This document shows, one piece after another, positions 5,264 through 32,068 of a stretch of 36,954 nt of DNA (its first letter is position 1; each line of letters starts with the position of its first letter). The notes beneath the pieces were generated by a model. It worked only from the letters and a program-made list of their open reading frames with translations. It was not told the origin of the DNA and made no database searches. This DNA comes from an uncultured Eubacteriales bacterium (lineage in GTDB: Bacteria; Bacillota; Clostridia; Christensenellales; CAG-917), in the NCBI GenBank assembly GCA_900322215.1, contig ONYW01000013.1, positions 32,600 to 69,553 on the forward strand. Reading direction: 5' to 3'. The position numbers and the translations under genes are program-made.

Positions 5264-5266
5264 GGT

Positions 5267-6421: not shown

Positions 6422-6441
6422 GGGGCGTATCGCTACGCCCC
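6422..6441 (-). promoter_or_regulatory. Strong hairpin between the giant gene and the SPFH gene, without T-tract
   Basis: GGGGCGTA (6422-6429) pairs perfectly with TACGCCCC (6434-6441) around a 4-base loop. It is the only structure in the 70-base gap. On the minus strand no run of T follows, so it is not a standard terminator. It may stabilise or process the mRNA, or separate expression of the giant gene from that of the small genes. No promoter-like sequence is evident between it and the SPFH start. Confidence 0.55.
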
Positions 6442-6458
6442 GCGCGTTGTTTATTTTG

Positions 6459-9400
6459 TTATGCGTTACGCGTGACAGTATATGTCGTTGTCGTAACTTG
6501 TTGTGCCGCAGGCACTTCGACGCCGTTTGCGTCCTTGACCGTTGTGACGATGTTGCCGTTCTTGTCAACGACCACGCCGACGTATGCTTTGAGTTTGTAC
6601 ACGATCTTTCTGCCCGCTACGGACGGAACCGCCACCGTGCTGCCGTTGCTTGAGAGCGTCACGTTGTAGGTCGCGACAGGCGTCGAGCCGTTTGCCGCAT
6701 AGACCGTTGCCGTACCTGCCCAAGCGATAGGCACCGACTTAGAGTTTATAGTCGCTTTCGTCGGGAGCGTCGCCGCCGTGCCGGATATCGTGCCGACAGC
6801 AGACGTTGCTTGCGCCGCCGTGATTGCCGTCGTGTCAACGACTGCCAACTTCACCGTGATTCTCTCTTGGTTGGAGAATTGGATCGTTGCTTCCTTGCCG
6901 TTGCCCTCGGACGTTATTCCGCTTGCCTCGACCTTCCAGGTGAGTGCCGTCGGCAACGTCACGATGACGTAGGAGAAGGTCTTCTGATAGTTCGTCACGT
7001 TCGGCGTGCTGTTATAAGACACCTTGCCGTCCGTCACGTTCGGATAGTAGACGTTGAACGTTGCCGTGTAGCTCGTCGGCAAGTTGAGCGTTGAGCCCAT
7101 GTACGGATTGATTGTGTAAGACGTCGCCGCGTTGCTGTTTGAAACGTTCGTCGTGTAGCCCGTAGACGCAATCTTGTTGAGTTCCATCTTTTGGACCTTG
7201 AACGGAATGTCAAGTTTTTGCGCCACGCCGTCTTCGCCCTTCAAGATTGCCGTAACGTTGGTGATACCGCCTTGATAGTTCGGACGGAAGGTCGAGAAGC
7301 TCCATTCGAGCTTGCCTTGACCTGTCGTCGGCGTGCCTGTCGTGTACGTCTTGTTGTTGCCGTTCAGCGTGTTCGGCATTGTCGGTGTGACGTAGTTGTA
7401 CGGGTTGACGTATGTCGAAGACTTGATATAGCCGGGTCTATCCGTATTGTTGACAAGGTTCGTCACGATAGAGTCAACCGAGCAGTTGTCGACGATGACG
7501 TTCATTCTGACCTTTTGCTCGCCGACTTCGTTTATTGTGCCGTCCGCTCTTGCATAGTCATACTCGCCGCTTCCGTTGATGACCGCAACCGCCGTGAAAC
7601 TGCCGCCTGCGTAGTTCACCGACACACCGCTGAAGTCCCAATCGATGTTGACTTCTTTCATCGTGCCGTCGGAGAGCGTAATCACCGCACTTGTCGGGAA
7701 GTATCTATAGCCGAGTTCATCGTGGCTGAGCAGTTCGTATGCGTTTTCGCCGACTATCTTGTAGAGACCGTTCTCGTCCTCGACGTACTTGCCGTCGTCC
7801 GTCAAAGCGTATCTTTCACCCGTGAATCTCTTCTCGAAGAACTTGCCCTTGACGTCCGTATTGAACGGATCGATCCAGAAGTTGTTGTCCGCCGACTTGT
7901 AGAACTTGCCCGCGTCGCCCGAGAGTTGCGTTGACGTGAAGCTGATAGAGGACGCCTTGGCGTTCATGATGCGGATAGGAACGTTCAGTGTGAGTTCGCT
8001 CCTGTTCGGATCGTCGTCCGCAGTTCTCACCGTGACCGACGTGTAGACCGTGCCACCTCTATAGCCGTAGGCAACGCCCGTATGATCCCAAGTTGCATTG
8101 AGCGTTTGCTCCGTGACGTAGACGAACACGTAGTCGCCGTTGTCGTCGCGATCATACATCTTTGTGCCTTGGACAGGTGAATATCTGTACGGTTTTACAT
8201 AGTGCGTGCCGCTTTCGCCGTCTTTGAGGACGAATTGGTTGTTCTCCCAGTCGTACTCATAAGCCATGTGACCGTCTGCGCTGTAGAGTTTGAAGTCTTC
8301 GGTTGCATATTCTTCCGCACTTGGATCGTCGTTGTATTCGCCGAGCGCGTAGTAGATGGCGTGGATTCTCATCCATTCAGCGTACGTTGCGTCGCCCGCT
8401 TCGCCCTTTTCGAGCCACTTGCTATACTTGATGAATTGTCCGCCGACATAATATGTGATCGTGTCTGCAAATTGACCGCCGAAGACGGAGTCTTCTTCAT
8501 CCGCGTACGGGTTGAAGTTGTAGATGTATCTGTTTGTCGTCGTCTCGTCTTCGTATGCGAGCGTCGTATTGTTGAGGTTGAGAGCATTCGGACGAATGAC
8601 AAGTTCGACCTCGAGCGTTCTGACGATAAATCTATCTTCGTCGTCGCCGCCCATGAGAGGATCGTTTTCAGGATCTCCGCTCCATACGTTCAGCTTGATC
8701 GTGCGTCTCGTCGTAGAGCTTGCGGAGATATCGCCGTAATCCGGTATGTTCTCGTATGTGAGTGCGTACGAGATACGTTCGCCGTCTTCGTTTCCGAACG
8801 TGAAGTTGATTTGTCTTGGCAAACCGTCAACCGCTCTATATGCGAACTGGTTCTCGAAGATGAATTGCGTCGGATATTGTCCCGCTTTCTTCGTGAAGAC
8901 GATTTCAAAGAACTCACCGCTCAGCGTGCGGTAGGTGTCGGTGATCGTCGCCGACTTGCTGCCGTCCGTGTAGAGGTATTCCCAATCGCTGTCCGCTTCG
9001 TCCTCAGGATCGAAGTCAGTGTCATAAATCGTACGATTTGCAATCGTGACAGGGATCGTGACGTTTTGGACAACCTTAATACCGTCCGCGCGCACGTAGG
9101 TCGCGGTCGTCGTGAACAAATAGTTGCTCTCTTGGTTCTTGAGGAGCGTCGCAACGCCCGACCAGTCGATCGTCACCGCAAATTCGTTCGTCTCCGTATT
9201 ATCTTTGAACGTCGTGATATGGAGTCCCGCTTCGTTCGCAGCTATGAGTCTGTCGATGTTGTTTTCGAGGAACGGATCGATGAATACCGTGCGGAAATCG
9301 CTTTCCTTCACGTACTTAGCCGTTCTGTCAAGGATATAGACCTTTTCGACGAGAGTCTCCGTGAGAGTCTCGTCCTTGCCGCCGTTGTAGGAGAACGTGA

Positions 9401-12780: not shown

Positions 12781-15700
12781 TCAGAGCCTGCGCCGCCGAC
12801 AAGTCTACCCGTTCTCCTTGCAGGGTCATCGATGATGATTGAGGTTGGAGCCTCGACTTGAGACGAGAGTTCTGCAATTTGTGCGGATTCGTCAAATGCA
12901 AGCATACCCTTCTTGACAGATGTGTCAACTGTGCCAAGCGGATCGATACGCAAGAACCAGCTGTCCCAAGAATCGGTGATACTTGATGTAGTTCCTGTAG
13001 GTTGAGCACCATAACTTGCACTTGGAGCTTTATTATACAACATTCCAGTGCCTGCACCATTCTTCTTGCAGTTGATCATAATTTCGATTGCTTGCACACC
13101 CGGAAGCATCGTGTAGGACGAGTTGAGCCCATAGTTTGACGGGTTAGGTTGTAAGTCAATGTAGAGGTTGATATTTGGATTGATCGTACCGCTTGCAAAT
13201 GGGATCGGCAGGAGCGTATTGATAAGAGCAGACATGTTTTGAATAACATCACCTACGAAGAATGAAATTATTCCATAGCCAGCCAAACCTTGAATTGCAC
13301 CAAGCATATCTTTTATCATTGGCATAGCAATAATTTGAAGAACATATTTCTCTAATGTAAAGCTTATACCTCTCACATATGGTTCCATATATGCAACCAT
13401 TTTTTGTACGCTTCCTGTACCAGCTTTATATTGCTTATAACGAGTATTCAATCCGTCAAGTATATTTGTTACAGTCGTATCAATGGTTTTTGCTGAGCTT
13501 ACGTCTGCAAAATATGGCAAATCGCCATTATCAGTTTCACCATCCAATTCATCTATTTGTTCTCTAAACATGTTAAGAACAAGTGTATAGACCATCAACA
13601 ATAACTCATTAAACGGATCCTTGTTGAGCTCAATATGAGCGGAAACAAAACGATTAGCGTTTGCCACAGCTCCCATTCCACTATAATATGGGTAATAATT
13701 GTTGTTGTTGAAGAGATCCAACGACACGCTCTTAACGAGGTTTTCAAGATTAAGCGGATAACTATAGGAAACAGTTGTCTTATTCCCTTCCTTTACCGTA
13801 TGTTTGATACCGTCAATAGTTTCAGTTGTTGTGGTGGTTGTGCCTGATGAATATGGAGGATATGACCACGTGGCGTCATCACCATCATCGCCCTTTGTGA
13901 GCGGGAAGAGGCTATCTATGAATGACGGATCGTCTTCAAGACCAAGAGGAGTAAGGGCGTTAACAACAAGATCTACTACCCACCCCATAATACCAGAACC
14001 ACTATCGGCTATATTAAGGTCGGAAATATAAAGATTGTTTGATCCAATATACAATGCTGCCCAATATGGATTGCTCATGCTAGAGCCATAGTTGGATGTC
14101 GTCTTTGGATGCTTTGCCTTCAAGTCAACAGCCAACATGTATCCTTTATTTGTGCCATTTTTATCAATCTCTTTATACTGCCTATTCAAAGTAAGTTGAA
14201 CTTCTGTTACTTCATTGTGCGCAACTACATCACTCTTGCTTGTGCCTGAAATAGCTGACCAAATTCGTTTGTCTATATGCAAGAACAAGCCAGGATTCAA
14301 GTTGTCGAGGACATTTTGAATGAGGCTGAACAAACCGGACGTCTTGGAATACGTGACGCCTGCATAGCCTGAATTGACTTCGTTTGCGAGTGATTCTTCG
14401 TCAAGGAAGCCACTGCCAAAGCCGAGTTCGATTGGTTTGATCTTGATATTCGCCGCCGTGCCGACCGTGTCGAGAAGTGCGTTCAAGTTGACTTCGTTGA
14501 GGTTGCCGCCATCCGAGATGAGTGAGAGTTCGACGGATTGCAAATCCGGCAAATCGAATGGCAAATCAAGATTCAAGAGACCGATTGCAAAGCCGAGCAA
14601 ACTCTTGTCGAACGTGACTGACGTTCTGCCGTTTTCAAGTGCGATCTCAAGGAAGAGTGATTCTGCCGTTGCCGCTTCGTCCGCTGCGGAAACCGCGTCT
14701 GCCGCAGTTGCAGCCTCTGCCACAAGTCCGCCCGGCGTTGCGCCAAGCAAGCCTGCGAGGCCTTGGAACTTGATCTTGCCAAGTCCCATACCCGTAAGGT
14801 CAAGGAAGATTGCGTCAGAATAGATGCCTGTCTCCACTTCTGTGATTTGATAGCCAAGCTCTTTGTGGTTGCTGTCTTGTTTGAGTCTCGAAGAACCGAG
14901 ATAGTAGATCTTTGCAAACGTAGAGTTGATTGGCTCGCCCATTTCGATGTCGAGAGCAAGATCGCTGAACAAGATACCTGAAATACCATACTTCAAGATT
15001 GCCGGCAAGTTGATGTTTGCTTTGAGGTCGATGAAGATTTCGATCGGCGTGCTTGTGAACGTAAAGTTGAATTCCGCCGTTGTGAACTTGTATTCGCCTT
15101 CTTCATCTTCGACATAAGACATTGCATACTTGGTGAGTGTTGTATTTCCCATTTGTGCTTCGGTAAGGCGAGTACCTGTTGCGGTGTAACAACCCGCAGG
15201 ATCTTCTGTGAACACTTGCTTATAACGTTTGCCACTGTATGTCTCGTTTGCTCCAATCTTTGAGTATGCGCCGACAGGGCCCACACCTGAAAGGAGTGTG
15301 CCAAGCGTGTTTTCGAGCCAGCCGAAGATGCTCTTCTCATAGAGACCGTCGCCCGCGCCCTTCTTGTGGTTTTCGGAAGTCATTGTGATGCTGAGACCGA
15401 GTTGCAAGCCGATCGTGTCGAGTTTGACTTCGAGTTCGCCACCGCCGACGAGACCGCCCTTGGACGCATCGGAAGTGATAGCCTCCGCATAAGTTGACGC
15501 GTCAAAGTCTGCAGGGATACAACCAGGATCCGACTTCGTGAGTTTGAGACGCGGTATGGACAAGCACGCATAGAAGCCGTCGCTGAATCTAAGGTTGAGG
15601 CTCAAGTGCGTACCGCCGTTCTTGTCATACCAGAAGCAGTCAGCGGAATCGCTGTAAGTCGTCTCCTCATAACGTCTTGCGGACGCGTTGTACAAATAGT

Positions 15701-21700: not shown

Positions 21701-24700
21701 CGCTATCGGATTTCGCGCTGATGAGAGCGATGATTTCGTCCGCGCTGAGTCCCGGCAAGAAGTATTCGATGACTTCCGCAAGGTCGATATCGTTGTCTGC
21801 GTCCGCCGTCTTCGTCTTGAGGCTCGCGTCGATCTCTATCGTTTCGGTGAGGCTGACGCGGTCAAGGTCGTTAAGGCTCGTGTACTCTTCGAAGTCTTCT
21901 TCTGTGAGTGCGTAGTTTCTTGAATTGATAAATTGTACATCAAGATTGCGGATGCCGAGGACAAGCTTCAAGTCGATGTCATATTTGCCGCCGTCAGCCA
22001 CGAACGCCTTGTTAACGGCGTCACCGCCGACGTACGTGTAGATGATGTCGTCGCTGTCGAGGGCTATGCCCGTTCCGTAAACAGGTTTGCCGTTCACGTC
22101 GAGGTCGAGCACTTGCTTCTTCATGAGGTTGCCGCCGTCGAGGTAAACTTCGTATCTTGCGTATTTTTCCGTCACGGAGTCGGTCGGCGTGATCGCGCGG
22201 AAGTATTGTCCGTTGTCCGCCGAGATATAATAGCCGTTTGCGGAAGTTTCAAATACATAGTATTTGAATTTTCTATCTTTCTCTTGTTGTTCGAGATCGG
22301 ATTTGACTGCAGCCGCAATAGAACTGTTGGTGTTACTGCCGAGATAGTTGTATCTGTCACCCGTGATCGTCAAGCCGACCGCCGCTTCGAGGTCGATACC
22401 ATCCGCGGTGTTGAGGTTGATTGCAAGGTTGCCGTCGATAGCCGTGTAGATGATGGATTCGAGGTCGATATTCGTGAGGTCGGAAATGAGTCCGATGATA
22501 TAGTCGAACATCTTGTCGCCGATACCGATTGCGAGGTTGTTCTTGCTGATGAGGAATGCGACCGCAAGTTCTTTGTTGCTGAAGTCGATACCGTTTTCGT
22601 CAGCCGTCAATGCTTCGGCGCTTGTCATACCGACTTCGTCCCAGTCGATGAGAATATCTTGTCCGAGAATCTCGTAGAGGATATCCTTGATGTTGAGACC
22701 GCTTATCGCGAGTTTCGGCAAGTTGAGGAAGTCTTCGCCGTCGATATAGAGCGAGTTGTTGAGGTAGTAGAGACCGAGCCACTTTGACTCATAGCCCGTT
22801 TCGGTAACGGCAAAGAGTTCCGCCGTAAGTTCCGAATTCGTGACGTCGTACATGTCGAGCATCAAACTGAAGTCGAGACGGAATTTTGCGGAAGAATAGT
22901 GTTTCGCCGTGTTCGGAGCCTCGAAGACTATACCGCCGATGTCGCCCAAGATATTGTGCAAAATCGTACCGAAGTCAAACGTGCTTTCCGTGATGGAGAA
23001 GTCGAGGTCAATGGAGAACGCGACCTTGATGATCGTATCATAGAACGGGTTGGTGCTGAGGTCTTCCGTGCGAGCGATAGACTCAGGATCGAGCGCGTCA
23101 TAGAGGTGCTCTTCGCCGTGTTCGTCGATATAGGTGTGCGCCTTGCCGTCTCTGATATAGTCAGGAAGCAAAGTTTGTCCCGCGCCAAAGCCGAAGGAGA
23201 GTCCGCCGACCTCAAAGCCGAGTTCCATTGCGCCGATTTCTATGTTGAGACCGACAAAGAATTCGTCAAGTCTTGAATAGTACTTGATAGAACGATAGTA
23301 CTCGCCCGCCGTGTCTTTGACATAACCGGACTTTCTCACACGCAAGCTCATAACTTTATAGTAAGAGCCGTTGTACTTGATTGCGTTCTCTATTTCAGGT
23401 TCGCCTTCTTCGGCGACGAGGAATTTGTTGTTTTCGTTTACGATATAGTCTTCACCGACTTTGTGGTAGAGCCTGTAAATCGTAATCGGAAGATATCTTA
23501 TACCGCGAATATCGACTTCCGCGTATTCACCGTTCACGTTGTCGATCGTGTCATAGTTCTCTTCGGCGAAATAAGAATATCTATCGTTCTTGTACTCGTC
23601 CGTGTCAAAGAGCGCTCTGAAATCGTCGTCTTCGATGTCCTCGATCTTTGAGTAGACTTCTTCGCCGTGTTGTACGCCGAGGGAGATGTCGAATTTGTCA
23701 AAGACTTCCTCGATAGAGCCGAGATCCGGGAAGATGGACGAGAGGAGAAGCGCGATGACCGAGCGCGTGATTTGGATTTGAAGCGCCGTGTCGCTGTACA
23801 CTATTGCGATGATAGCGTCACGAAGCACGTCTTGCTCCGTATCCGCCGCCGTTTGAGCCTCTTGCTTGTCGCCGTTAAAGAGATTCTTGACCGTGTCGAT
23901 GAGTCCCTTGCCCTTTTCGAGAACGATGGAGACGAGGTCCATAAAGTTGTCTATTCTCGAATAGTTTTCCGCGACGCCGACAATGCCCGTTGCGTCAAGA
24001 TAGAGCGAGCCGTTGTGCAAATAGATACCGCCAAGGACTTTGTCCTTGCCGTCGATCTTCTTGAAGTTGTTGCGTTCGTCGATGGCGATGAGTTCGAGAG
24101 CGAGTTCTATCTTGTTGAAATCGCTGTCGAGAATAGAGCCGTGCGCTCCGCTCTTGTCGATGAGTCCTGCGAGGTTGATGGACGCGAGGTCGAGATTGAC
24201 CGCGAGTTTGAATCCGATACCGCTGTTGAACTCGGACATAGTTTGGAGTTCGATGAGCATATCGCCGAGGAGGTTGCCGACGAGTGAGCCGAGGTTGTAG
24301 CTCTCCGCGCCCGTCGTGTTGAAATGCAAGAGACCGGAGACGCTGAGCGAGATGTTCTGATCCGCATAGGAATCGAGATCCGTTCTCGTATAGACCTTTG
24401 TGCCTTCGGCGAGGAGTTCGCCCTTCTCCGCACTATATCTATTGTTCACGCCTGCGCCTGCGTACGCGATGTATGCGTCTTTGTCTTTATCGAATTGATA
24501 TTCGCCGTTGTCGTTTTGGACAAATTCTATCGCAAAGACTTGTTCGCCTTCCTTCATCGCATAACCGCGAGTGTAGCGGCTGACGTCGGAGGCTACTGTT
24601 TCGTCCTGCATAATCGGACGGAAGGTCTTGTTCTTGAAGATGTAGTCACCGTTTGCGTCCTCGGTGAACGTATAGTAGAATTTGTTTTCCGCAAGGTCGG

Positions 24701-27700
24701 TTTCCTCTTCGTATACGCTGTCGAACACGCCGTTTACGGTGTTGAGTATGTTGTCGATATATTCGTCAAGGCTGATAAAGTCGAGTCTGTCGCCCATCGG
24801 AACGAGGCTCTCGGAAGTTTGAATACTCTCAAACTTGAGTCCGAGGTTGAGACCGAGTTTGATATCGACTTTGTACGTCTTGTCTTCCGCGCCGTCAGGA
24901 GCGTTGACGTCTTCCTTGTTCGCAAGAGCGAACAGGAGTCTCAAAGACCACATGTCAGGCGCGTAAGTCTCGGCAAACGAATCGTCGTCGAAGTCGATGA
25001 AGATACCGCTTTGCGTATCGTCAAGCACGCTCGACTCAAAGAAGACGTCGTCTCCCATGATGAGAGAGAGCAAGTCGTTGACGAGATTTGACGCAAAGAA
25101 GATGCTGAAATCTTTGACCTTGTAGAGCATCGGACTCTTTGCCCACTTCTCCGCTTGAAGTCTGATTCTCGTGATAACGGAGTTGATGATTTGCATGAGT
25201 CCCGAGACATCTTGGAAGTTTGCCGTGAGTCTGTCGATGAATCCCGGTTCTTGAGCCTCTTCGTCAGCGGATGCGAGTGCGTCCTTGACCGTGTCGACCA
25301 AACCTCCGACGGACAACTTGAACGTGGAGAGGTCGAGCCCGAGCAAATCGAAGATAGGTTGAACTTCTATCTTGATCTTTTCGCTGCCGATGCCCGAGAG
25401 ATCCATAAAGAGTTCGCCGTCCGCAAAGTAGATACCGACTTTTGCGTGTTCGTTTGCAGGCTTGTTTTGCTCGTAGTCGAAGTCCATTTCGACTTTGAGT
25501 TCAAGCGCGTCAAGCACGCTCGTGCCTGTGATTTCTATCTCGGTAATTTCTCTGAGGTCACCGGTGTTCGGATCGAAGAGACCGAGTTTTTCAAGGTCTA
25601 CTCTTATGCCGATTTCAATGAGGAAACCGTCGTCGATAGCGGAGTCGAGAAACACGCTGAGTCCGAGGTGGTTGAGAAGCGTACCGACCGTGAGAGAACC
25701 GTCCGTCTCTGCCGAAACGAAGTTCTCGCCGCCAAAGCGTACGACAGGAAGTGCCGTTGCCAACACGCTTGAGAGCGCAGGCAATTTGAGGAGTTGTTCG
25801 ATGAGTTCGTCATAGGAGAATCCGCTTCTTACGTAGTGACCGTTCGGATCCTTGACAAATCTGCCGTCGTGCGCGTTCTTTGAATACCTTTCGTCCGCGG
25901 AATAGTTGACGAGAGTCTCTTCGCTGACGAGTTCATACGTCGCGCACGCGCTGTAATCGACGATGAGAGCAAGGTTGACCGTGATGACGTGGTTGTCCGC
26001 TTGCTCCGCAAAGTGGTTAATATACTCGCCGTTATTATTCTTATAGAATTCATCGGCGTTGTAACTGTATTTTTGACCTGTGTACGTTTCGCCGTCTTCA
26101 AGTTCAACATAGCCTTCGCCTTCAACATATTTGAAGTTGCCGTTATCCGTCGGATAGTAGTGACTATATCTGTCATTGCCTGTTGAATCGCCGTCAAAAC
26201 CGATATAATCCTTTCTATCTATTGCGGATTTGAGTTTTTTGGAGATTGCGCCCGCCGTAACGCTTTTACTGCCCGTCGCGATACCGATGTCCGTAATTCT
26301 CACTGCGAGTGCAAGAAGGTTGCTGTCGAGGTCGACATTGATTTCGATAGGATCGAGGCTCATATCCGCTTCGAGAGCGAGGTCGAGACCGAATTCGGAG
26401 ATGATGTCGGTTATAGACTTGCCGTTCGTCACTTCGGAGTTGCCCGCGAGTGCCGCGATGAGACCGATGATGACGTTTTCCGTGACGAGCAAACCGAGTT
26501 TGCCGTTCGCGATGTTGAGAGCGATTTCAAATTGCTCTTCCGCATCCTCTTCGGCGGACGTCACAGCCTCGGCGTCTTCGCCGATTCTGCCCATAAGTCC
26601 TACTATCAAATTGCAAATTCTATCGGATATATCCGTATTTCTTACGAATATCGCCTGCTCGGACAATTTGCCCATATCCACGTACGTGTCGGAACCTTTG
26701 ATATAGAAGCCCGCGATGATTTCATCCGTTATCGTATTCAAAAGTTCGATGACGATTTCCGTGCTTTCGGGATTGTTGAGCGCGAGGTTCGCGCCGAAGG
26801 ACAAGCCGAGACCGTATGTAATATCGTTTTCTTTCGGGAATTCGATGCCGAGTTTGAGCCCGAGATCCGCGATGAGAACGTCGATATACTTTTCAAGGCG
26901 GATTTCTTCCTCTTGGTGCTTGAGCGTAAAGTCGAGGTCAAGCGCCATATTGAGGGAGAGTTGGTCGAGTTTGTCGACGGTCATATAGTTGGACTTGTTG
27001 AACGTCGACGGCAAAACGCTTTCGTTTCCGCCAATTTCAAGTTTAAGGCTTGAGAGATTTATTGCAAACTTGACAGGATCGATGCCAAGGCTCAAATTGA
27101 GCGCGTACTTCCAGAAGAACTCGAAGTAACTCGTTTCAGGATCGATCGCAACAAATTTGTCCGCGGGGATTTGCTTGCCTGTGAGCATGTTGACAAGCAT
27201 AACGACGAGGCTTTGTGCAAAACTGAGTTTGAAGCCTTGTTGATCCGCGTCGATACTATAAATGATTCCGCCGAGCGCACCCTTGAGCGTGTCGAGAATG
27301 CTTGGCAAATCGATATTGTCGAGAAGTCCGGAGGTTGTCGCCTCTTTCTTTTGGTTGTTGCCGACGAGCGAGAGCAGGCTGTCTATCAAGGACGAGAGAT
27401 TGAGGTTGTCGATCGCCATGTGGAAATCGTCCTTCAAGTCGAGGTAGAGCGTGCTCGTGCCGTTTTCGCCCGCAATGAGTCTCACGACGAGAACCGTCGC
27501 TTTGTTTCTTTCCGCTTGCGTCGTCATTGCGTCGACGTTTTCGATAGCCGTGTTGTAAAGTTCTATCGCAAGGTCGGAGTGAGAAAGGATATAGCCGATG
27601 TCAAGCAAGGACTTCGCGACGTACATAGTCGTGCCCGCTTCCACCTTTGTCGGATCGACTTTTATGAAGTTCTCGCCGACTTTGACGTACACTTTCACGT

Positions 27701-30700
27701 CGCCTTCGAGACCTGCGACATTCTTGAGTTCTTCAAGCGGAATGCCGTCCGGCAAATATTCCTTGACGTACTTGACGCCGTCGTACGTCTCTCTCTCCTC
27801 CGCCGTGAGGAGTTTGTATTCGGCTTTTACGAGTTTGTAAACTTCGGTGTAGGCAGGATTGTCCACCGCGAGTTCATTAAACACCGTGTTCGCCGTCAAA
27901 TTGACAGGAACGTCAGGGTTGAGTCTTGCCTTCAACGCGATACGGAAACCGAAGTCTCTCGCGACGTCCGTCGGAATGTTGTATTGAAGCAAGAGTTCGC
28001 CGATGAAGGAATAGAGCGCAGGATTGTCTTCCGCATTGAGGAAGTTCGTGATCCATTCGCCGACTGACCATTCGTCGTTACCTGCAACCGCGCCGAGCGA
28101 AATCGTGCCTTTGAGTTCGGCAAAAATGCTCGGAATGACGATATCTTTGCTTTCGTTGAAGAGCGTAATCTCGTCAAATCCGCCGTGTACGGAGTCCGCA
28201 AGCACGTATTCGGAGACGGAGAACACCTTCGGTACGTCGTTTTCAAGGATGACGTTGCCGTCCTTGTCGTAGATCGTACGTTTGATCTTGAGTCCGTTCA
28301 GGCTGTTGACGATGCTGACGTTCACGTCGTCGCCGACATAGATCGTCGCCGCGCCGATGTATTGAGCGTTTTCATTGTAGATAGCGCCCGTAAATTCAAA
28401 CATTCTGTTGTTGTGCTCTTCGAGGTTGTCCCATGCGAAGTTGAGATATGCGATAGCGTTGTTCGTGTCGATGCCGAACACTCTGAAGATCGCCTCCGTG
28501 ATACCTCTCGTCACTTCGACTTTTACGCTGTCGGACATGATGAAGGTGAGGACCTTGAAGAGAATCGCTTGTTTTGCAGCCGTTTGAGTCTCCTCGTCCG
28601 CGCTGGCAAGAGCGTCGGCTGCCGAATACGCCACGTCGTTGACCTTGACGTTGACGTCCTTCATGAGGAGATTAAGAATGAGCGCATAGAGGTCGATATC
28701 CGTCGAGACCTTTGTGATACCGAAGTGCTCGCCGTCGATATAGAGCGTACCGCCCGTATAGTAGATGCCAAGCAAGACTTCTTCGTTTTGACCGAACTTA
28801 GAGCCGGAGAGTTCAATGAGAAGTTCGCTGACGTTGTCGTAGGTGTTGATAGATTCCGCACCGAACAAATAGTCGATGACAGGCTTTAAGTCGAGATCAG
28901 CCGCGACTCTCATCTTATAGTTGAAAGTCATACGGTCGTTGAACGTGAACGGAACGACGACTTCTTCGCCGTTGTTGCCGAGAATAAAGTCGGATTTGCC
29001 TTCGTCGCCGTCAAAGTCGAAGCCGAGAGCGAGGTCTACCGAGACGTAAGGAGCGTCCAAAACGTTCGTGAAATCTTCGGGCTCTTCCGGAGCGAGGTCT
29101 ACGTCCACAAGACCGCCCTTGAAACCGTCGAGGGAGATCGTGAAGTCCATATTGCTGCCGACAGCGAGCCAAATTTCAAATTGCAAATCTTTGAGGTCGA
29201 GGCTGTCCGGAACCGCAAGACGGATACCGCCGTTTGCGTCGTCGCTTGCAAACTTGATGTCAATGCCGTTTAGACCGATCATCGACAAGAGGTTGTCGAT
29301 AAGTCCCGCCGCAAGTCCGATTTCGATAAATCCGTCCGTAACCGTAATTTTGCCGAGCGCGCCCGCGATAATCGCCATGATGTCGATATTGCCGAGGTCG
29401 ATGCCGAGCAGTCCGCCGCCGTCTTCAGCGGAGAGCGCGTCGCTTGACTCCGCTTCACCGCCGATGAGTCCCATTATGTCGGAGAGTTTGATCTTGACCT
29501 TTTGCACGCCGATAAAGAGGACCGAAAGGTCGATATAGATATAGCCGTCGGAGAGGCAAATATAGACGAGTTGCTCGCCGTCCGTCGCCTTGTTGACGGT
29601 AAGTCTGATTTGAGAATTGAGAAGCGTATCGAGCGTCAAGCCCGTCGAGAGGTCGATACTCGCGTCAAGGTTGACTTTGAGTCCGCCTTGAATATTGCCG
29701 AGCGTAAGCAAAACGTTTGCGACCATGCCTTCCAAGAAGTCGTCCGCAATGCCGAGTTTGCCGAGTTCGATATTCACTTCACCGAGCGCGCCCTCAAGCG
29801 TTTGGAGATCGAGTGTGAGCCCCGTGGAGAGAGAAATATTGAATTTGGTTATATCGAGCGTGCCGTCTTCGAGGATCGGGAGATACTCGTTGTCCTTGTA
29901 GACTACGTTGTTGATCTTTGTCGTGAACGTCTCTTTGTCGAGGATCGTTCCGAATTGCATTTGTCCCGCGAGATCGAGGGATACGAGAGGCTCTTCAACG
30001 CCGAAACCGATGTTGAGAGAGAGCGTCTTCGGCTTCGTTACGCCTTGGTTTGCAAAGGCGAGGTCGATGTTTGTGAGAGGCACTTTGATGCCCGCGTTGT
30101 CGCCCGTGAGGACAAGCGACAAGATAGCGTCGATAACCGCCTGCGTGATGCCGACTTTGACTTCCGTGATATTGAAGATGTCGCCGTCCATGCTGATATC
30201 AATGCAGTCGATGATCATATTGATGAGCGTGAGCGTATCCACCTTTTGCTCGTCATCGGCGGAAGAAATGCCGTTGTGCGGAATGATGATCTCGTTGTCC
30301 GCGATTGCGGATTGAAGCGCTTCGCTCGTGTTTTGGAAGATGGAGAGGTTGTTGATAGTGTCGACAATGAGTGTTCCGACTTTGTCAAAGAGTCCGTCGA
30401 CAATAGAATTGAGGTTGATGTTTTCAACCTTCAGCTTTGCGCCGACAAAGTCGCCGCCCGCGATAGAGTTTTCGTTCGGAACGCCTGTGAAAATACCGCT
30501 CGCGTCGATATAAATCGCGTTCTTTGAGCCTATATAGTAGATGGAAAGTGCGGTCGTGCCGTCTTCAGAACGGAGTTCCGCAACGATTTGAGTCTTTGCG
30601 TTGTCACGAGTGTTTATAGTGCCTTGCAGGACAAAGGACAGACTGAACGTGCCCTTGTTGAAGTTGATTTCCTTTGCGAACAGCGGGAGGAGGCTGTTGT

Positions 30701-31979
30701 AGAGGTCTTCGCTCAAATACTTCGTGAGGAGGTTTTCGATAAGGTTGCCGAAAGAGCCGACCACGTTGCCAATCGTGACCGTCTTTGTGATGGCGTTGAT
30801 GTTGATGTCCACTCTTGCGTCGAACGTGAGGATGGAGAATTCCTCGATATTTGCAAGACCTTGAGAATATTTTTCGTTGACGATCGCCTTGACGTCCAAA
30901 TCGGGAGCGCCGGCAAAAGTCGCTCTCGTAAAGCCGAGATTTATGCCGATTTCGTTTTGGAACAAACCGTATTTCGCAATAACTTCGTCCCTGCCGAAAG
31001 AGTTGAGGTTGAAGTCGATATCCGCGTCGATACCCGAAAGTTTGTCGTCGATAATATCCGCTTGGAGGTAGAGCGCCATACCGCTAAGTGCGCTGATCTT
31101 TCTAAGGTCGATATTGAGGACTTTCTCTACAAGTACGAAAATATCTTCGGGGATTAAGCTTTGAACAAGCGGCAAAAGACTTGCGATGAGTGAAAGATCG
31201 CAAGGGATTTGAAGTGCTTTATGCCCTTCGCCATAATCTACGAGACGGCTCTTGTTCGCACCGAAGAGGAAGTTGACGATGAGGTCTTCGAGAGAGACAT
31301 TGACGGCGTCGATTCCCGCAAATTGCTTGAGAAGAGCGCCGATGTTCATACCGAAGATCTTGTCCCAAAGGAGGTCGGAAATGCCGATCCTGTCAACGAT
31401 GTTGTTGAGTCTCGACATGAGAGCGGTAAGGTCGATATCGCTCGTCTTCACCGCATGCGCGCCTTTGGAGAGTCCGCCGAGGTCGATGACTATCTGTTCT
31501 TCGACATAATAGAGACTGAGCACGGGGCCGGTGGCGTCTTGAATCACTTCGACGGTGCCGTCCGGCAAAACGTTTGTCGTCGCTCTCGTCAGTTCGATGA
31601 GAAGTTTCGACGAATCGCCCTGCGTCCTGTCGTATTGAGTGTCGATACTGCCTGCGATACGGAGAACGTATTGAGCGTTGTATGTATCCTTGGCAAAACC
31701 GAAGTCAAGCGACGTGTCAAAGTTGAGCCACCTTGCGTCCTTGCCTTGAGCAGACGCGTTGAGTGCCGCCGCTTTGAGCATATCCCACGCTTCTTGCGAA
31801 CCGATGTTCGTCGAATTCTCTTCGACGTTATCACTCGGGTCGACAGGTTGAACCGGGTTGTCTATGATAGACCCGTTGCCGCTTCCTGAATGGTTGGAAG
31901 GGTTACATGCCGCAAGACCGACGACCATAATGACCACCAGTACGAGTAGCAAGATAATTGGCAATTTTTGCTTTTTCAT
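6459..31979 (-). CDS. Giant repetitive lipoprotein (8,506 residues)
   Basis: One uninterrupted frame of 25.5 kb encodes a protein of roughly 0.9 MDa. The start at 31979 has GGAGGAG just before the ATG and gives a signal peptide beginning MKKQKLPIILLL. This ends in the lipobox LAAC with Cys25 as the lipidated residue; a Ser/Gly/Asn-rich spacer follows to about residue 50. Residues ~50-6,250 hold about 15 diverged modules (described separately). Residues ~6,400-8,506 are about 13 Ig-like repeats. There is no second transmembrane segment, LPxTG motif, catalytic domain or recognisable toxin domain. It should be anchored by its N-terminus on the outer face of the membrane and extend into or beyond the wall. 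A consensus promoter and a hairpin leader precede it. The function is unknown. Surface adhesin, envelope spacer and lipid-handling protein are the candidates. Confidence 0.9.
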   Translation of the reverse strand: MKKQKLPIILLLVLVVIMVVGLAACNPSNHSGSGNGSIIDNPVQPVDPSDNVEENSTNIGSQEAWDMLKAAALNASAQGKDARWLNFDTSLDFGFAKDTYNAQYVLRIAGSIDTQYDRTQGDSSKLLIELTRATTNVLPDGTVEVIQDATGPVLSLYYVEEQIVIDLGGLSKGAHAVKTSDIDLTALMSRLNNIVDRIGISDLLWDKIFGMNIGALLKQFAGIDAVNVSLEDLIVNFLFGANKSRLVDYGEGHKALQIPCDLSLIASLLPLVQSLIPEDIFVLVEKVLNIDLRKISALSGMALYLQADIIDDKLSGIDADIDFNLNSFGRDEVIAKYGLFQNEIGINLGFTRATFAGAPDLDVKAIVNEKYSQGLANIEEFSILTFDARVDININAITKTVTIGNVVGSFGNLIENLLTKYLSEDLYNSLLPLFAKEINFNKGTFSLSFVLQGTINTRDNAKTQIVAELRSEDGTTALSIYYIGSKNAIYIDASGIFTGVPNENSIAGGDFVGAKLKVENINLNSIVDGLFDKVGTLIVDTINNLSIFQNTSEALQSAIADNEIIIPHNGISSADDEQKVDTLTLINMIIDCIDISMDGDIFNITEVKVGITQAVIDAILSLVLTGDNAGIKVPLTNIDLAFANQGVTKPKTLSLNIGFGVEEPLVSLDLAGQMQFGTILDKETFTTKINNVVYKDNEYLPILEDGTLDITKFNISLSTGLTLDLQTLEGALGEVNIELGKLGIADDFLEGMVANVLLTLGNIQGGLKVNLDASIDLSTGLTLDTLLNSQIRLTVNKATDGEQLVYICLSDGYIYIDLSVLFIGVQKVKIKLSDIMGLIGGEAESSDALSAEDGGGLLGIDLGNIDIMAIIAGALGKITVTDGFIEIGLAAGLIDNLLSMIGLNGIDIKFASDDANGGIRLAVPDSLDLKDLQFEIWLAVGSNMDFTISLDGFKGGLVDVDLAPEEPEDFTNVLDAPYVSVDLALGFDFDGDEGKSDFILGNNGEEVVVPFTFNDRMTFNYKMRVAADLDLKPVIDYLFGAESINTYDNVSELLIELSGSKFGQNEEVLLGIYYTGGTLYIDGEHFGITKVSTDIDLYALILNLLMKDVNVKVNDVAYSAADALASADEETQTAAKQAILFKVLTFIMSDSVKVEVTRGITEAIFRVFGIDTNNAIAYLNFAWDNLEEHNNRMFEFTGAIYNENAQYIGAATIYVGDDVNVSIVNSLNGLKIKRTIYDKDGNVILENDVPKVFSVSEYVLADSVHGGFDEITLFNESKDIVIPSIFAELKGTISLGAVAGNDEWSVGEWITNFLNAEDNPALYSFIGELLLQYNIPTDVARDFGFRIALKARLNPDVPVNLTANTVFNELAVDNPAYTEVYKLVKAEYKLLTAEERETYDGVKYVKEYLPDGIPLEELKNVAGLEGDVKVYVKVGENFIKVDPTKVEAGTTMYVAKSLLDIGYILSHSDLAIELYNTAIENVDAMTTQAERNKATVLVVRLIAGENGTSTLYLDLKDDFHMAIDNLNLSSLIDSLLSLVGNNQKKEATTSGLLDNIDLPSILDTLKGALGGIIYSIDADQQGFKLSFAQSLVVMLVNMLTGKQIPADKFVAIDPETSYFEFFWKYALNLSLGIDPVKFAINLSSLKLEIGGNESVLPSTFNKSNYMTVDKLDQLSLNMALDLDFTLKHQEEEIRLEKYIDVLIADLGLKLGIEFPKENDITYGLGLSFGANLALNNPESTEIVIELLNTITDEIIAGFYIKGSDTYVDMGKLSEQAIFVRNTDISDRICNLIVGLMGRIGEDAEAVTSAEEDAEEQFEIALNIANGKLGLLVTENVIIGLIAALAGNSEVTNGKSITDIISEFGLDLALEADMSLDPIEINVDLDSNLLALAVRITDIGIATGSKSVTAGAISKKLKSAIDRKDYIGFDGDSTGNDRYSHYYPTDNGNFKYVEGEGYVELEDGETYTGQKYSYNADEFYKNNNGEYINHFAEQADNHVITVNLALIVDYSACATYELVSEETLVNYSADERYSKNAHDGRFVKDPNGHYVRSGFSYDELIEQLLKLPALSSVLATALPVVRFGGENFVSAETDGSLTVGTLLNHLGLSVFLDSAIDDGFLIEIGIRVDLEKLGLFDPNTGDLREITEIEITGTSVLDALELKVEMDFDYEQNKPANEHAKVGIYFADGELFMDLSGIGSEKIKIEVQPIFDLLGLDLSTFKLSVGGLVDTVKDALASADEEAQEPGFIDRLTANFQDVSGLMQIINSVITRIRLQAEKWAKSPMLYKVKDFSIFFASNLVNDLLSLIMGDDVFFESSVLDDTQSGIFIDFDDDSFAETYAPDMWSLRLLFALANKEDVNAPDGAEDKTYKVDIKLGLNLGLKFESIQTSESLVPMGDRLDFISLDEYIDNILNTVNGVFDSVYEEETDLAENKFYYTFTEDANGDYIFKNKTFRPIMQDETVASDVSRYTRGYAMKEGEQVFAIEFVQNDNGEYQFDKDKDAYIAYAGAGVNNRYSAEKGELLAEGTKVYTRTDLDSYADQNISLSVSGLLHFNTTGAESYNLGSLVGNLLGDMLIELQTMSEFNSGIGFKLAVNLDLASINLAGLIDKSGAHGSILDSDFNKIELALELIAIDERNNFKKIDGKDKVLGGIYLHNGSLYLDATGIVGVAENYSRIDNFMDLVSIVLEKGKGLIDTVKNLFNGDKQEAQTAADTEQDVLRDAIIAIVYSDTALQIQITRSVIALLLSSIFPDLGSIEEVFDKFDISLGVQHGEEVYSKIEDIEDDDFRALFDTDEYKNDRYSYFAEENYDTIDNVNGEYAEVDIRGIRYLPITIYRLYHKVGEDYIVNENNKFLVAEEGEPEIENAIKYNGSYYKVMSLRVRKSGYVKDTAGEYYRSIKYYSRLDEFFVGLNIEIGAMELGFEVGGLSFGFGAGQTLLPDYIRDGKAHTYIDEHGEEHLYDALDPESIARTEDLSTNPFYDTIIKVAFSIDLDFSITESTFDFGTILHNILGDIGGIVFEAPNTAKHYSSAKFRLDFSLMLDMYDVTNSELTAELFAVTETGYESKWLGLYYLNNSLYIDGEDFLNLPKLAISGLNIKDILYEILGQDILIDWDEVGMTSAEALTADENGIDFSNKELAVAFLISKNNLAIGIGDKMFDYIIGLISDLTNIDLESIIYTAIDGNLAINLNTADGIDLEAAVGLTITGDRYNYLGSNTNSSIAAAVKSDLEQQEKDRKFKYYVFETSANGYYISADNGQYFRAITPTDSVTEKYARYEVYLDGGNLMKKQVLDLDVNGKPVYGTGIALDSDDIIYTYVGGDAVNKAFVADGGKYDIDLKLVLGIRNLDVQFINSRNYALTEEDFEEYTSLNDLDRVSLTETIEIDASLKTKTADADNDIDLAEVIEYFLPGLSADEIIALISAKSDSGKDVNRKFWLTLTVDIQLAALMNSVRTRMDFGTEGDLSAVTYVNMLIDGIKGLLDGGISLDKVLDIVLDIASYISISAVITTQNGEESEPHTIFGIYLVGGTYELMTDNEFLVEDDDYVAPEFRYDHYYENSKGSYIHNGTDYVYNTDPNYAGTRYAYDSSYCYKNELGKYKRDNGGIYIDLSYFNLPSIVINSKSMRALVANLPNLISSFTSSDAAVADEEESSGGLSLPLVDDTVSGYLKMFIYAIRMTSSYIAVMLQPDYINSILKLIGGEDFSFQFDSDKFVNKPELKIYADNHRYAYLSTEDLLAEVVETKNAYDTETDPAIKPELKIEWDKAIAEVEQLLNSTRYRFTVEEISDVNGGMYWKDEDGAYILKTDMTASTRKAYDKAVLAGEKKYYNISIIDTYVKVGGNYVNYLNATTAQLRSVERNAELYNLYGVSFPQLYIADGAETKSIEEYGIDKVYSVKVLDKRNPLIGLQLYLWNYELAVNIYMPKFGADEFKYVTGAEALLSGVEAPIAARYTTQEQELMTAADREEDKLYQWKEDYYTSGTFDSAKYDANPRYYEYKNDYYVIDGTSLCTKDSSNKYNPVGTVVDYMAGIAATGDEHKEYFISIPGEGYFKVQRAFVYRLTKYDLDGKRLLTVEEAQSAEYQDPSSYFVRDVQESIVKVPDFKSAEYADYAYDEYIDTDDIFYVALKLSGRIAIEGGKMYFEYDNYQDLYNTSHATDIFKDASADITNDEWAILSSISFKYFHGDYVQVYDRDEVQELRKSGALYVWANSALGEDYNGVNEPLNEVLSGILGTMNGYFQVKEDTKMEIFFEIKLNMSFEINFTPSFNVIVRDLDLAIDAWGRQQDLKTNPATTPVEDYEFLTEEERKNSTAKRYYGSLTHVLGIYYSNDHDTGNAGLYIDLSWLLGNGGKMYVDLSAYSVEDVINGLVGNLLAGTASDALAAEETVYQDPDDAALYISIFTNALALELSTNFLKVVVAELAPDAENILEMLPNAKIYLKQTLNPYDLTLGLLLYNEKGTVPMLDVKLQIYGLNGDALSSSIEFGREEDFRARQNQNDPSYIFYYANYYNDQTGGAYAKNGVDKGYVNVEEYEQEHGTYNGAFERFSLSEKAFVPVQASARYAYGSTHQPQYNGFLYDADGNVMFGSRLYRDIVSTRTFHDYTGPLYIVNASENGRLEYVTKLQLIGFTAEFREATELEIEENDPRIIIIDGVKSIPTEASLQYVEETDAPDELKSGTPLTLRGMTCYPVDFDGDGFTDKNEADRIAPSIPVYKAVQDFTDYTKVGALNVGDVINSLTSGAGLDVKSLLAGFDTFETIELNANMDLGLKLKDVINWSRIMTEFIGDSNIAETVYFLATSLNNDNTSFESTIGLDIALHLYINVGNLLASFTSEEGFNLVSALKGTKVYAEILYNTNFHGEDKAHARLWIEVTDDEYDAEGNLVKEGGKLNGYIDMKEIGEIVGLGDYFSYGLVEDVDIENLISRLSGLLGGLTSASTEALAAEDEEITSTGVLPANIWNIINAIIGRLLIADDFITIGLDQNLMNGVIELLVGSGNEDLMDIIALLPHLRTTNDRNTSGITVNFYGTAPTIDLNFGWVVGKEYNLSVADYNAKYGADGTEVKPGYGENITASQEGIYFAGGNVVVSTEEYALKTFAYPEWAGDSYKFAGLDEQEEPVFEIAADGKYLKLGDFNLGMSMYGLTADINKPFSYGTAHETMMTKDGVDISDEFVKFEDAHFAIDLSIGVDIYGSGQAGDANIIDLSEILDLVLGLVAPNSAISGSTLRLNIVNELGYSDRDFVTLNIKAYIANNKFNLTEEGDKFTLNAAIELILNRAEADGGKKVLLGAYIQNDNAYLDLSEVLGSTAKISITNLGINKLVAEALSGLVQATDASEALTAGASEIAEIEDTMMDLPYVLLRVNPRRLLLQINADVINAVYKKIMAIRGKEQKNLIPDIGDLMLKATTTDTYLSVQHASFDKASYDAAGGKYYLYNASARRYEETTYSDSADCFWYDKNGGTHLSLNLRFSDGFYACLSIPRLKLTKSDPGCIPADFDASTYAEAITSDASKGGLVGGGELEVKLDTIGLQLGLSITMTSENHKKGAGDGLYEKSIFGWLENTLGTLLSGVGPVGAYSKIGANETYSGKRYKQVFTEDPAGCYTATGTRLTEAQMGNTTLTKYAMSYVEDEEGEYKFTTAEFNFTFTSTPIEIFIDLKANINLPAILKYGISGILFSDLALDIEMGEPINSTFAKIYYLGSSRLKQDSNHKELGYQITEVETGIYSDAIFLDLTGMGLGKIKFQGLAGLLGATPGGLVAEAATAADAVSAADEAATAESLFLEIALENGRTSVTFDKSLLGFAIGLLNLDLPFDLPDLQSVELSLISDGGNLNEVNLNALLDTVGTAANIKIKPIELGFGSGFLDEESLANEVNSGYAGVTYSKTSGLFSLIQNVLDNLNPGLFLHIDKRIWSAISGTSKSDVVAHNEVTEVQLTLNRQYKEIDKNGTNKGYMLAVDLKAKHPKTTSNYGSSMSNPYWAALYIGSNNLYISDLNIADSGSGIMGWVVDLVVNALTPLGLEDDPSFIDSLFPLTKGDDGDDATWSYPPYSSGTTTTTTETIDGIKHTVKEGNKTTVSYSYPLNLENLVKSVSLDLFNNNNYYPYYSGMGAVANANRFVSAHIELNKDPFNELLLMVYTLVLNMFREQIDELDGETDNGDLPYFADVSSAKTIDTTVTNILDGLNTRYKQYKAGTGSVQKMVAYMEPYVRGISFTLEKYVLQIIAMPMIKDMLGAIQGLAGYGIISFFVGDVIQNMSALINTLLPIPFASGTINPNINLYIDLQPNPSNYGLNSSYTMLPGVQAIEIMINCKKNGAGTGMLYNKAPSASYGAQPTGTTSSITDSWDSWFLRIDPLGTVDTSVKKGMLAFDESAQIAELSSQVEAPTSIIIDDPARRTGRLVGGAGSDFELRDSSFFNAGLFPQFVDVRYVSSTELHSYYTQSGDYTGMARGTMIVWDAASVDLTPQPIDTDEPQRLAGYVYGYALNTVVYAIPVYVTNGKAVTDIKAYEYNAATSKWDAKKITVDFNEDTSKTFGNKLPDLVQLTFNEGGKRVFATVTPGAALMAAGITAANYNSKNPTESIAYTAALVLDENGEPVKVKKANAQGVEVEYMLVDSNKLPTGKLYPTGTITWNTGDYKYDWKGAVDGSGKLTVGYSYQWGLAPTCEGSVEIQTVNYEIATIAKFGFANGETIKSLANLDALGMTAEQSDLVNYIESIKTVSGTTTSGTKINNMSVRWDLTALKKAIEALGKDKEGNVNFYKGLDVNVTAYVGGDVFKVVTYENAGSGSSGLLGGLLGGGSSSSSAGFVGSGSTEYADADHIAQAYTVRVHVKPYVYDSLKTALVFDPYSSASISGDSFAISQLIFKGEDRETVSKSVDSSMISISAPYYYVSGDYINAYANGLKDSDITYSGYRGARLYAELTIGTAYSGKQVVYVPITINALKQQPTTINIAHEDVFNPEWYAKYDVIGGVSFGGGMVHEMVPDWTTLKYFKEQNAKTRLEASDIYRGGTFYAQVQARVLDGAGNAIACPKDSNGNDIPQTITLKLVVEQQTITGVKFFYDPSLNGADIYSTKDGEALVTTLGDKLLNKDYYTGTVYAQTHAVNNTVYGIDPLNYVVNPDDYFKIGKWGDAVNGTAVLVELADGESYVAYLQDVRVLIRDMIEGEQTTLTGHIGGQEVAIPVHTPNYTLTTVTALSADSTLEISGQNVPATALTLTFDELKAWRLPASATFATVSGQLNGVATEITWTNTSAPTLEELNANRSGNESYVERTYHFFDGTKFETEDYTARIYVTNYDMSVDRIVLNGLETEYKPFKEFRYPTTATVTYSTGSAEQVSVVWDNDSLPTDEEIRAGEFVRNAYVGGDMKAAGWKSEVRFTVLDQFDFRTAEGFRTNNRDVSFVLTTDKFFEGLPREGKVLVDEEEVPVTYFWNVTYGKDGYSGDVILTVSNEYLTVDVPVNLTIEGTSISGFVKEEGEYLTIDTYGEEGTFFTSGTMTSLVNANGDVVEVLGRYELPSDFYTSASKYFGKVRDITVTFSYNGGKDETLTETLVEKVYILDRTAKYVKESDFRTVFIDPFLENNIDRLIAANEAGLHITTFKDNTETNEFAVTIDWSGVATLLKNQESNYLFTTTATYVRADGIKVVQNVTIPVTIANRTIYDTDFDPEDEADSDWEYLYTDGSKSATITDTYRTLSGEFFEIVFTKKAGQYPTQFIFENQFAYRAVDGLPRQINFTFGNEDGERISYALTYENIPDYGDISASSTTRRTIKLNVWSGDPENDPLMGGDDEDRFIVRTLEVELVIRPNALNLNNTTLAYEDETTTNRYIYNFNPYADEEDSVFGGQFADTITYYVGGQFIKYSKWLEKGEAGDATYAEWMRIHAIYYALGEYNDDPSAEEYATEDFKLYSADGHMAYEYDWENNQFVLKDGESGTHYVKPYRYSPVQGTKMYDRDDNGDYVFVYVTEQTLNATWDHTGVAYGYRGGTVYTSVTVRTADDDPNRSELTLNVPIRIMNAKASSISFTSTQLSGDAGKFYKSADNNFWIDPFNTDVKGKFFEKRFTGERYALTDDGKYVEDENGLYKIVGENAYELLSHDELGYRYFPTSAVITLSDGTMKEVNIDWDFSGVSVNYAGGSFTAVAVINGSGEYDYARADGTINEVGEQKVRMNVIVDNCSVDSIVTNLVNNTDRPGYIKSSTYVNPYNYVTPTMPNTLNGNNKTYTTGTPTTGQGKLEWSFSTFRPNYQGGITNVTAILKGEDGVAQKLDIPFKVQKMELNKIASTGYTTNVSNSNAATSYTINPYMGSTLNLPTSYTATFNVYYPNVTDGKVSYNSTPNVTNYQKTFSYVIVTLPTALTWKVEASGITSEGNGKEATIQFSNQERITVKLAVVDTTAITAAQATSAVGTISGTAATLPTKATINSKSVPIAWAGTATVYAANGSTPVATYNVTLSSNGSTVAVPSVAGRKIVYKLKAYVGVVVDKNGNIVTTVKDANGVEVPAAQQVTTTTYTVTRNA
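13230..31830 (-). repeat. About 15 tandem LppX/LolA-like beta modules inside the giant lipoprotein
   Basis: Each module contains a beta-hairpin motif close to GIYYxxGxLYIDLSxxGxxKI. It is preceded by a pattern like LDxVSLxxxIxID and followed by a helix, usually an acidic linker, then a second half with long alternating strands (LxLxLxF). The motif falls near residues 161, 491, 812, 1079, 1514, 1764, 2191, 2657, 3079, 3606, 4336, 4891, 5292, 5727 and 5984, a mean spacing of about 415. The clearest examples are GIYYTGGTLYIDGE (near 28,745), GLYYLNNSLYIDGE (near 22,745) and GIYFADGELFMDLSG (near 25,410). The motif resembles the YxxxGxxYxxLxG strands of single-domain lipoproteins such as LppX/LprG, which hold lipid in a half-barrel. 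That family link is inference from pattern only. Modules are too diverged to show long DNA repeats. Confidence 0.75.
13240..14260 (-). other. AT-rich island within the giant gene (module 15)
   Basis: By hand count, sample lines here are about 30-45% G+C, against about 53% in a line sampled near 28,700. Codons shift to A/T-ending forms. The frame is uninterrupted, and the stretch covers residues ~5,907-6,247, the last and least typical beta module before the Ig-like array. A different history for this segment, such as recombination or transfer, is plausible. Confidence 0.6.
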
Positions 31980-31994
31980 AATCTCCTCCATGCT

Positions 31995-32040: not shown

Positions 32041-32068
32041 ATTATATCACGCCTGTATCAAAAGTCAA
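32041..32068 (-). promoter_or_regulatory. Strong sigma-A promoter of the giant lipoprotein gene
   Basis: On the minus strand TTGACT (32063-32068) is followed by a 16-base spacer and a consensus TATAAT (32041-32046). TGA immediately before it gives an extended -10 (TGn). Transcription should start near 32034, leaving a leader of about 55 bases. This is the best promoter match in the window. Confidence 0.8.

Follow-up and report, generated by a model that had tools for sequence, protein, structure and literature searches.

A giant lipoprotein gene

Why would a bacterium with a small genome carry an uninterrupted gene of 25.5 kb, and what kind of protein does that gene encode? The gene lies on the minus strand (6459–31979) of a 36,954-nucleotide stretch of DNA, here called the window, from an uncultured Eubacteriales bacterium (Christensenellales, CAG-917; GenBank assembly GCA_900322215.1, contig ONYW01000013.1, positions 32,600 to 69,553). 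The assembly consists of 65 contigs totaling 1.59 Mb with a completeness of 94%, and the gene takes up 1.6% of it. Translation of the window gave a single frame of 8,506 amino acids with one stop codon, at its end. The protein contains 14 divergent copies of one domain of about 250 residues over residues 52–5839, followed by immunoglobulin (Ig)-like repeats, and the number of copies is nearly fixed among its relatives.

The list of open reading frames prolongs the frame to a GTG at 32036, which would give 8,525 residues. The ATG at 31979 is preceded by GGAGGAG, which stops three bases short of it. The promoter upstream was called by its match to the consensus, which is 11 of 12 positions; a scan of 401 bases found four sites with nine or more matches compared to a mean of 1.4 in shuffled sequences. 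The signal peptide ends in LAAC and places the lipobox cysteine at Cys25. By its N-terminal sequence, with a lipobox ending in cysteine, the product is a predicted bacterial lipoprotein of the signal peptidase II type. The mature protein is 932 kDa with an isoelectric point (pI) of 4.4, and it has no match to an LPXTG-like motif. These data agree with the original prediction, made from the DNA letters, of a genuine start, a lipobox with Cys25, a consensus promoter (as a sequence match), and 25.5 kb without a stop. Coordinates are collected in Table 1.

Table 1. Positions of the features in the window.
Feature	Position	Strand	Basis
Giant lipoprotein gene, 8,506 aa	6459..31979	-	frame; homologues in relatives
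Ribosome-binding site GGAGGAG	31983..31989	-	read from sequence
Promoter-like site TTGACT-16-TATAAT, TG before second hexamer	32041..32068	-	11/12 consensus matches
Lipoprotein signal peptide, aa 1-24, lipobox before Cys25	31908..31979	-	sequence; lipobox also in relatives
Repeat domain 1, aa 52-305	31065..31826	-	repeat HMM
Repeat domain 2, aa 378-660	30000..30848	-	repeat HMM
Repeat domain 3, aa 714-928	29196..29840	-	repeat HMM
Repeat domain 4, aa 978-1181	28437..29048	-	repeat HMM; AlphaFold2 model aa 905-1215, mean pLDDT 53
Repeat domain 5, aa 1319-1636	27072..28025	-	repeat HMM
Repeat domain 6, aa 1665-1879	26343..26987	-	repeat HMM
Repeat domain 7, aa 2087-2333	24981..25721	-	repeat HMM
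Repeat domain 8, aa 2540-2780	23640..24362	-	repeat HMM; AlphaFold2 model aa 2528-2795, mean pLDDT 52
Repeat domain 9, aa 2973-3196	22392..23063	-	repeat HMM
Repeat domain 10, aa 3362-3729	20793..21896	-	repeat HMM
Repeat domain 11, aa 4203-4453	18621..19373	-	repeat HMM
Repeat domain 12, aa 4749-5023	16911..17735	-	repeat HMM
Repeat domain 13, aa 5176-5412	15744..16454	-	repeat HMM
Repeat domain 14, aa 5628-5839	14463..15098	-	repeat HMM
Ig-like repeat region, units of about 100 aa, aa 6712-8293	7101..11846	-	8 matches at E < 0.05; Big_4
Downstream gene, SPFH/Band_7_1 domain and zinc ribbons	5267..6388	-	domain scan; clustering
HMM, hidden Markov model; pLDDT, predicted local distance difference test.

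The gene is intact in relatives

A fragmented assembly of 65 contigs could in principle hold an artefact or a decaying gene, and the original prediction named a misassembly of shorter genes as one finding that would overturn it. Relatives of residues 1–1420 were present in 28 of the 61 genomes searched, the organism's own included, so the frame is not open by chance. All 28 were among the 37 genomes of the same family, and none was found in 24 genomes from other families of the order. Ten homologues fetched whole were open frames of 7,263–10,465 residues with no N, each with a lipobox and colinear with the window's protein at 27–68% identity, and conservation was even over the length. Profile A1, built from the block with the best conservation, matched 33 of 44 family genomes, the own genome included, and 22 of the 26 near-complete ones. 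The matched genomes comprised 22 closed frames of 6,203–10,465 residues (own included), 10 frames cut by contig ends, and one with a run of N (G006). The lipobox search pattern misplaced the site in two of the first ten homologues and in several of the 22 family proteins added later; it found none in two of the latter, both with the start cut off. Compared with the closest relative, the number of nonsynonymous substitutions per site (dN) was 0.16–0.36 per 1000-codon block, whereas the synonymous value (dS) was beyond measure in seven of nine blocks; the remaining pair gave 2.1 and 4.0. Closed frames in relatives, colinearity across assemblies, and low dN against very high dS led us to reject both misassembly and a pseudogene, as far as sequence allows, and we consider either scarcely credible. 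The gene is a real, single, giant lipoprotein gene, as had been proposed.

Fourteen copies of one domain in a fixed order

The repeats are old, and as expected Tandem Repeats Finder sees almost nothing in the gene, just one 27-base run. BLAST of the protein against itself gave weak matches (best about 1e-6), and profile-profile self-comparison gave many more. An iterated hidden Markov model (HMM) of 252 positions was built from the family's own proteins, which means that the E-values it returns for them are not independent. At E < 1e-3 it found 14 copies in 24 of 33 family proteins, 15 in two (G028 and G064), and 9–13 in seven, every one of them truncated at a contig end. The 22 closed proteins divide into 20 with 14 copies and two with 15; the 14-copy closed proteins span at least six genera. 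Forty decoy proteins, reversed and shuffled, gave no domain at the same threshold. Profile A6, made from the 14 copies in the window, matched the whole own genome 14 times, always inside the giant gene, and no second gene with this domain was seen in that search.

Each copy has its own identity. The filtered alignment retained all 14 copies for 21 genomes. In these, copies at the same position had a mean identity of 0.325 compared to 0.164 between positions (highest 0.197), and the closest copy on average was the positional counterpart for all 14 copies. These data indicate that the duplications predate the family and that the copies do not homogenise one another. The linkers between the domains are 28–473 residues long. 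Across the family tyrosine makes up 8.0% of the linkers versus 3.9% of the domains, and leucine plus isoleucine make up 21.8% of the domains. The linkers encoded at window positions 15099–26342 carry tyrosine-rich inserts in which the pattern D/N-x-G-x-Y ... R/K-Y recurs, 1–15 per protein in the eight proteins scanned, and these inserts might bind glycans. A loop of the form Ser/Ala-Asp/Glu-Ala-Leu-x-Ala-acidic includes Ala1123 (window positions 28611–28613) and has counterparts in the other 13 copies; its alanine is one of two columns identical across all 14.

Domain searches and the predicted fold

The whole protein was scanned in six pieces against Pfam and NCBIfam at E-values up to 1. Residues 1–7100 had no match to any family in either library at E 1 or lower. 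The C-terminal part is recognizable: about eight units of roughly 100 residues lie in residues 6712–8293 (8 matches, E < 0.05), and the Pfam model Big_4 (PF07532) scored 28.1 bits against a cut-off of 22.1 in its best stretch, residues 7311–7336 (whole-piece E 1.5e-6). The original prediction held that the protein has none of the domains of the known giants. This stands for peptide and polyketide synthetases, as condensation, adenylation, ketosynthase, and carrier domains were absent from the scans of the whole protein; it does not stand for adhesins, as the tail is adhesin-like. Further searches found little. PHROGs (E up to 0.1) gave a best row of 0.041 with no function attached, and 19 and 46 candidate stretches on viral contigs held no relative. 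Pfam on 11 members of profile A2 gave two chance-level rows, DUF3531 (E 0.072) and Staphostatin_A (E 0.14), and no lipid-binding family. Against PDB sequences, profiles A1 and A2 found nothing at E 5 and A6 one row of E 1. For ten 1000-residue pieces, taken from four closed giants of other families and a fifth that is partial, the best Pfam row was E 0.019, and NCBIfam on a 1,817-residue relative plus five pieces had a best row of E 0.024. By these sequence comparisons the repeat domain is without a credible Pfam, NCBIfam, or PDB-sequence match. One candidate, DUF6612 (PF20316), was rejected: it had no match in the own genome, and hhalign gave a probability of 0.1 against an alignment of six matches, one of them below cut-off.

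Two AlphaFold2 models were built from the window's repeat sequences alone, and their mean predicted local distance difference test (pLDDT) scores were 53 (residues 905–1215) and 52 (residues 2528–2795). The second model predicts the order strand, helix, strands, helices, strand, helix, strand. Only the core is common to the first model, with a long strand, a short helix, four strands, and a helix. Coevolution was computed from 438 domain rows (effective number 385–403) with column-permuted controls. Two pairings rose above them: an antiparallel strand pair near model positions 102 and 119 (ladder 18.8 versus 12.3 for the highest of three nulls), and helix A (around 38) against helix D (around 214) (ladder 12.9; single-pair z 5.8 versus null maxima of 4.8 and 4.6). 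The other pairings first read did not exceed the controls, and we claim no order for the rest of the sheet. Hydrophobic and polar columns alternate along the strands (b1, 0.77/0.11; b2, 0.15/0.79; b7, 0.17/0.95), and 20 alternation windows exceeded 0.5 compared to 13 in the highest of 200 permutations. The domain showed no internal symmetry. Fold searches with these low-confidence models gave no significant match, and the absence of a family from their lists excludes nothing. Lol-type and TULIP-type entries recur among the insignificant rows, amid many unrelated folds, and serve as a lead only.

The domain occurs across one order

Of 298 genomes sampled from the order, 67 matched profile A2, in families f1, f5, f7, f16, and f24. 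In a like sample of 298, profile A6 matched 75, 20 in f1 and 55 in f5, f7, f13, f16, and f24. By profile match, then, the repeat domain is found in six families of one order. Wider samples gave no match outside the order: A2 at E 1e-4 or lower matched 2 of 391 genomes of a class sample, both of family f1, and A6 at E 1e-3 matched 1 of 398 in a phylum sample, which was the own genome. Four closed giants of other families have a lipobox at each start: G173 (12,531 residues, 13 domain matches at E < 0.05), G042 (9,118, 19), G293 (10,486, 20), and G124 (10,553, 20). Ig-like repeats are listed for the first three. The stretches from G185 and G040, also of other families, stop inside the giant gene. 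The frames listed for family f5 are mostly 1,667–3,415 residues with one of 7,109, lengths taken without checking for contig ends. A shorter f5 relative, of 1,817 residues when counted from the first start codon, carries a lipobox and three detected domain copies; its Big_4 score is 21.0 bits, just below the cut-off of 22.1. At 2343–11778 of its locus (L085, genome G040) it adjoins a 1,326-residue surface-type protein with an MBG_3 domain. Positions 9878–11083 of locus L009, from an uncultured Bacilli bacterium (Reindeer_2_mag_150), are 93% identical to residues 987–1347 up to the contig end. No match was reported before residue 987 despite 10 kb of sequence there; the break reflects either a chimeric contig or a real rearrangement.

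A proposed stalk of set length and its rivals

The reading we favor, at roughly even confidence, is that the protein is a membrane-anchored surface stalk of set length that crosses the wall, a fold and function that we infer. After export, the N-terminal cysteine would carry a lipid that holds it in the cytoplasmic membrane, on the outer leaflet. From there the row of 14 compact domains, with linkers that vary and are often rich in tyrosine, would extend outward through the wall, and the Ig-like tail would form the distal part and contact other cells, the host, or a substrate. A domain of this kind typically measures 4–5 nm, which would make the chain of the order of 100 nm and longer than the wall is thick. 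Omp85 had no match in the own genome while 7 of 14 control genomes matched, so by gene content the cell probably has one membrane only. With a lipidated N terminus outside the cytoplasmic membrane and a single membrane, the chain would have to run outward. The near-fixed copy number and the separate identity of each copy argue against a loose repeat that shrinks and grows, and the length of the stalk or its position-specific contacts seem to matter.

Several observations weigh against this stalk. Export, lipidation, extension, and binding are all steps that we infer, and Ig-like domains alone are not proof of adhesion. Adhesin stalks usually vary in repeat number and this protein hardly does. 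Its strongly one-sided hydrophobic strands exceed the needs of a mere spacer. Seven further stretches reach a hydropathy of 1.61–1.97, at or above the usual membrane cut-off of 1.6, compared to 3.2 for the signal peptide; all seven sit within repeat domains and are taken, going by hydropathy, as putative buried elements. With the repeat HMM, reversed decoys gave 19 weak domain matches at E < 0.1 (best 0.0012). Profile A1 had no match in 11 of 44 family genomes, and four of these belong to the 26 that are near-complete. Residues 1–1420 did find a relative in one of the 11, G031, and a second search of all 11 with residues 2841–4260, run without a positive control, found none. The gene may thus be dispensable, real absence not being separable from assembly gaps.

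The main rival takes the 14 domains as carriers of hydrophobic ligands, of the LolA/LolB, LppX, or TULIP sort, on one lipid-anchored chain. They would serve to acquire lipids, to keep them in reserve, or to pass them on across the wall, the candidates being fatty acids, bile acids, sterols, or lipids of the cell itself. We regard this as possible but clearly less probable than the stalk. In its favor are the fixed identity of each copy and the strands that are hydrophobic on one side. The sharp alternation along those strands, the leucine and isoleucine content, the element order of the second model (shared by the first in the core), and the LolB, LolA, or TULIP entries among weak rows from low-confidence models are all consistent with it. 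The Pfam models of the LolA/LolB, LppX, and TULIP lipid-binding folds had no match in residues 1–7100 at E 1 or lower. A stronger version, which we think improbable, is a lipid conduit: 14 individually specialized lipid-binding domains held in a fixed row and anchored at the cytoplasmic membrane of a single-membrane bacterium. If true, hydrophobic molecules would pass along the row across the wall, toward or away from a second surface, and the array would be the cell-wall equivalent of bridge-like lipid transfer. It is likewise improbable that many copies of the protein form a coat or matrix on the wall and reach out to no partner. The large size, acidic pI, single such gene seen in the genome, and tyrosine-rich linkers would suit a coat; SLH or another wall-binding domain was not found in the Pfam scan, and near-complete family genomes without a match argue against it. 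Least probable of these is that the protein is a polyprotein, processed at the flexible alanine- and acid-rich loop of each domain to release small proteins. The invariant loop alanine points that way, whereas the ten neighboring frames scanned hold no protease family, and the modeled domain places the loop between helices, where cleavage would leave the domain nicked but not released.

Neighboring genes

The neighborhood of the giant gene gave no pointer to function. The SPFH gene is possibly cotranscribed with it, and clustering placed a similar gene after the giant gene in 4 of 10 other genomes. Positions 4196–6388 (minus strand) encode the SPFH/Band_7_1 protein with zinc ribbons and then a zinc-ribbon protein, a pair that by clustering resembles the SPFH and zinc-ribbon genes 3' of the giant gene in G010, G026, and G030. 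A GC-rich hairpin of 11 pairs at 6419–6444, between the giant and SPFH genes, is terminator-like on the plus strand only. Upstream, clustering groups an acyltransferase-like gene from 7 of 11 genomes, and these seven belong to a single genus. At 1753–3101 are two adjacent short proteins, each Gate domain-like (nucleoside recognition) and both below the Pfam cut-off.

Relation to known giant proteins and significance

The Giant1-5 proteins of Apilactobacillus kunkeei are described as extracellular proteins of 3,000–8,000 residues with long imperfect internal repeats, encoded by five consecutive genes in a 1.5-Mb genome (PMC12863079). They have a Sec/SP1 signal peptide, alpha-helical or beta-sheet repeats, and a C-terminal DUF5776, and Giant1-4 have a beta-solenoid near the N terminus (PMC12863079). 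On that description, our protein shares giant size, long imperfect internal repeats, and a small genome, but it differs in its lipobox, in being the sole such gene seen in the genome, in the 14 copies of a different domain, and in the Ig-like tail; DUF5776 had no Pfam match in it. A UniProt survey of huge bacterial proteins (>5,000 residues) names surface proteins as one of two main groups, and its main text does not use the word lipoprotein (PMC11573180). The present protein also exceeds 5,000 residues, and its repeat domain is without a Pfam match. Giant surface proteins as such are already known from what these two papers describe (PMC11573180, PMC12863079), and our searches of one open-access library turned up no giant lipoprotein of this domain and layout.

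No description of such a protein was found in the open-access literature searched, where the papers listed for "giant lipoprotein", judged by title, concern blood lipids and metabolic or vascular disease; the original prediction likewise knew of no described lipoprotein family of this size in Clostridia. Like Big_4 surface proteins, this one has C-terminal repeats of about 100 residues with the Pfam model above cut-off, but its Ig-like units form only about the last fifth and the 14-domain array is a separate kind. Lol/LppX lipoproteins and the TULIP and bridge-like lipid-transfer proteins have an amphipathic antiparallel sheet with helices, and the bridge-like ones are tandem. The modeled domain resembles them in its predicted amphipathic sheet with helices, tandem layout, and possible hydrophobic groove; neither sequence nor fold gave a significant match to Lol/LppX or TULIP proteins.

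Giant surface proteins of bacteria tend to be repetitive and to vary in length. Here 1.6% of a small genome is spent on a chain that keeps both the number and the order of its domains in at least six genera. This lipoprotein is a good case for asking why a bacterium keeps a protein of 8,500 residues at a set length. The shorter relative, with its three detected domains, makes it accessible to bench work.
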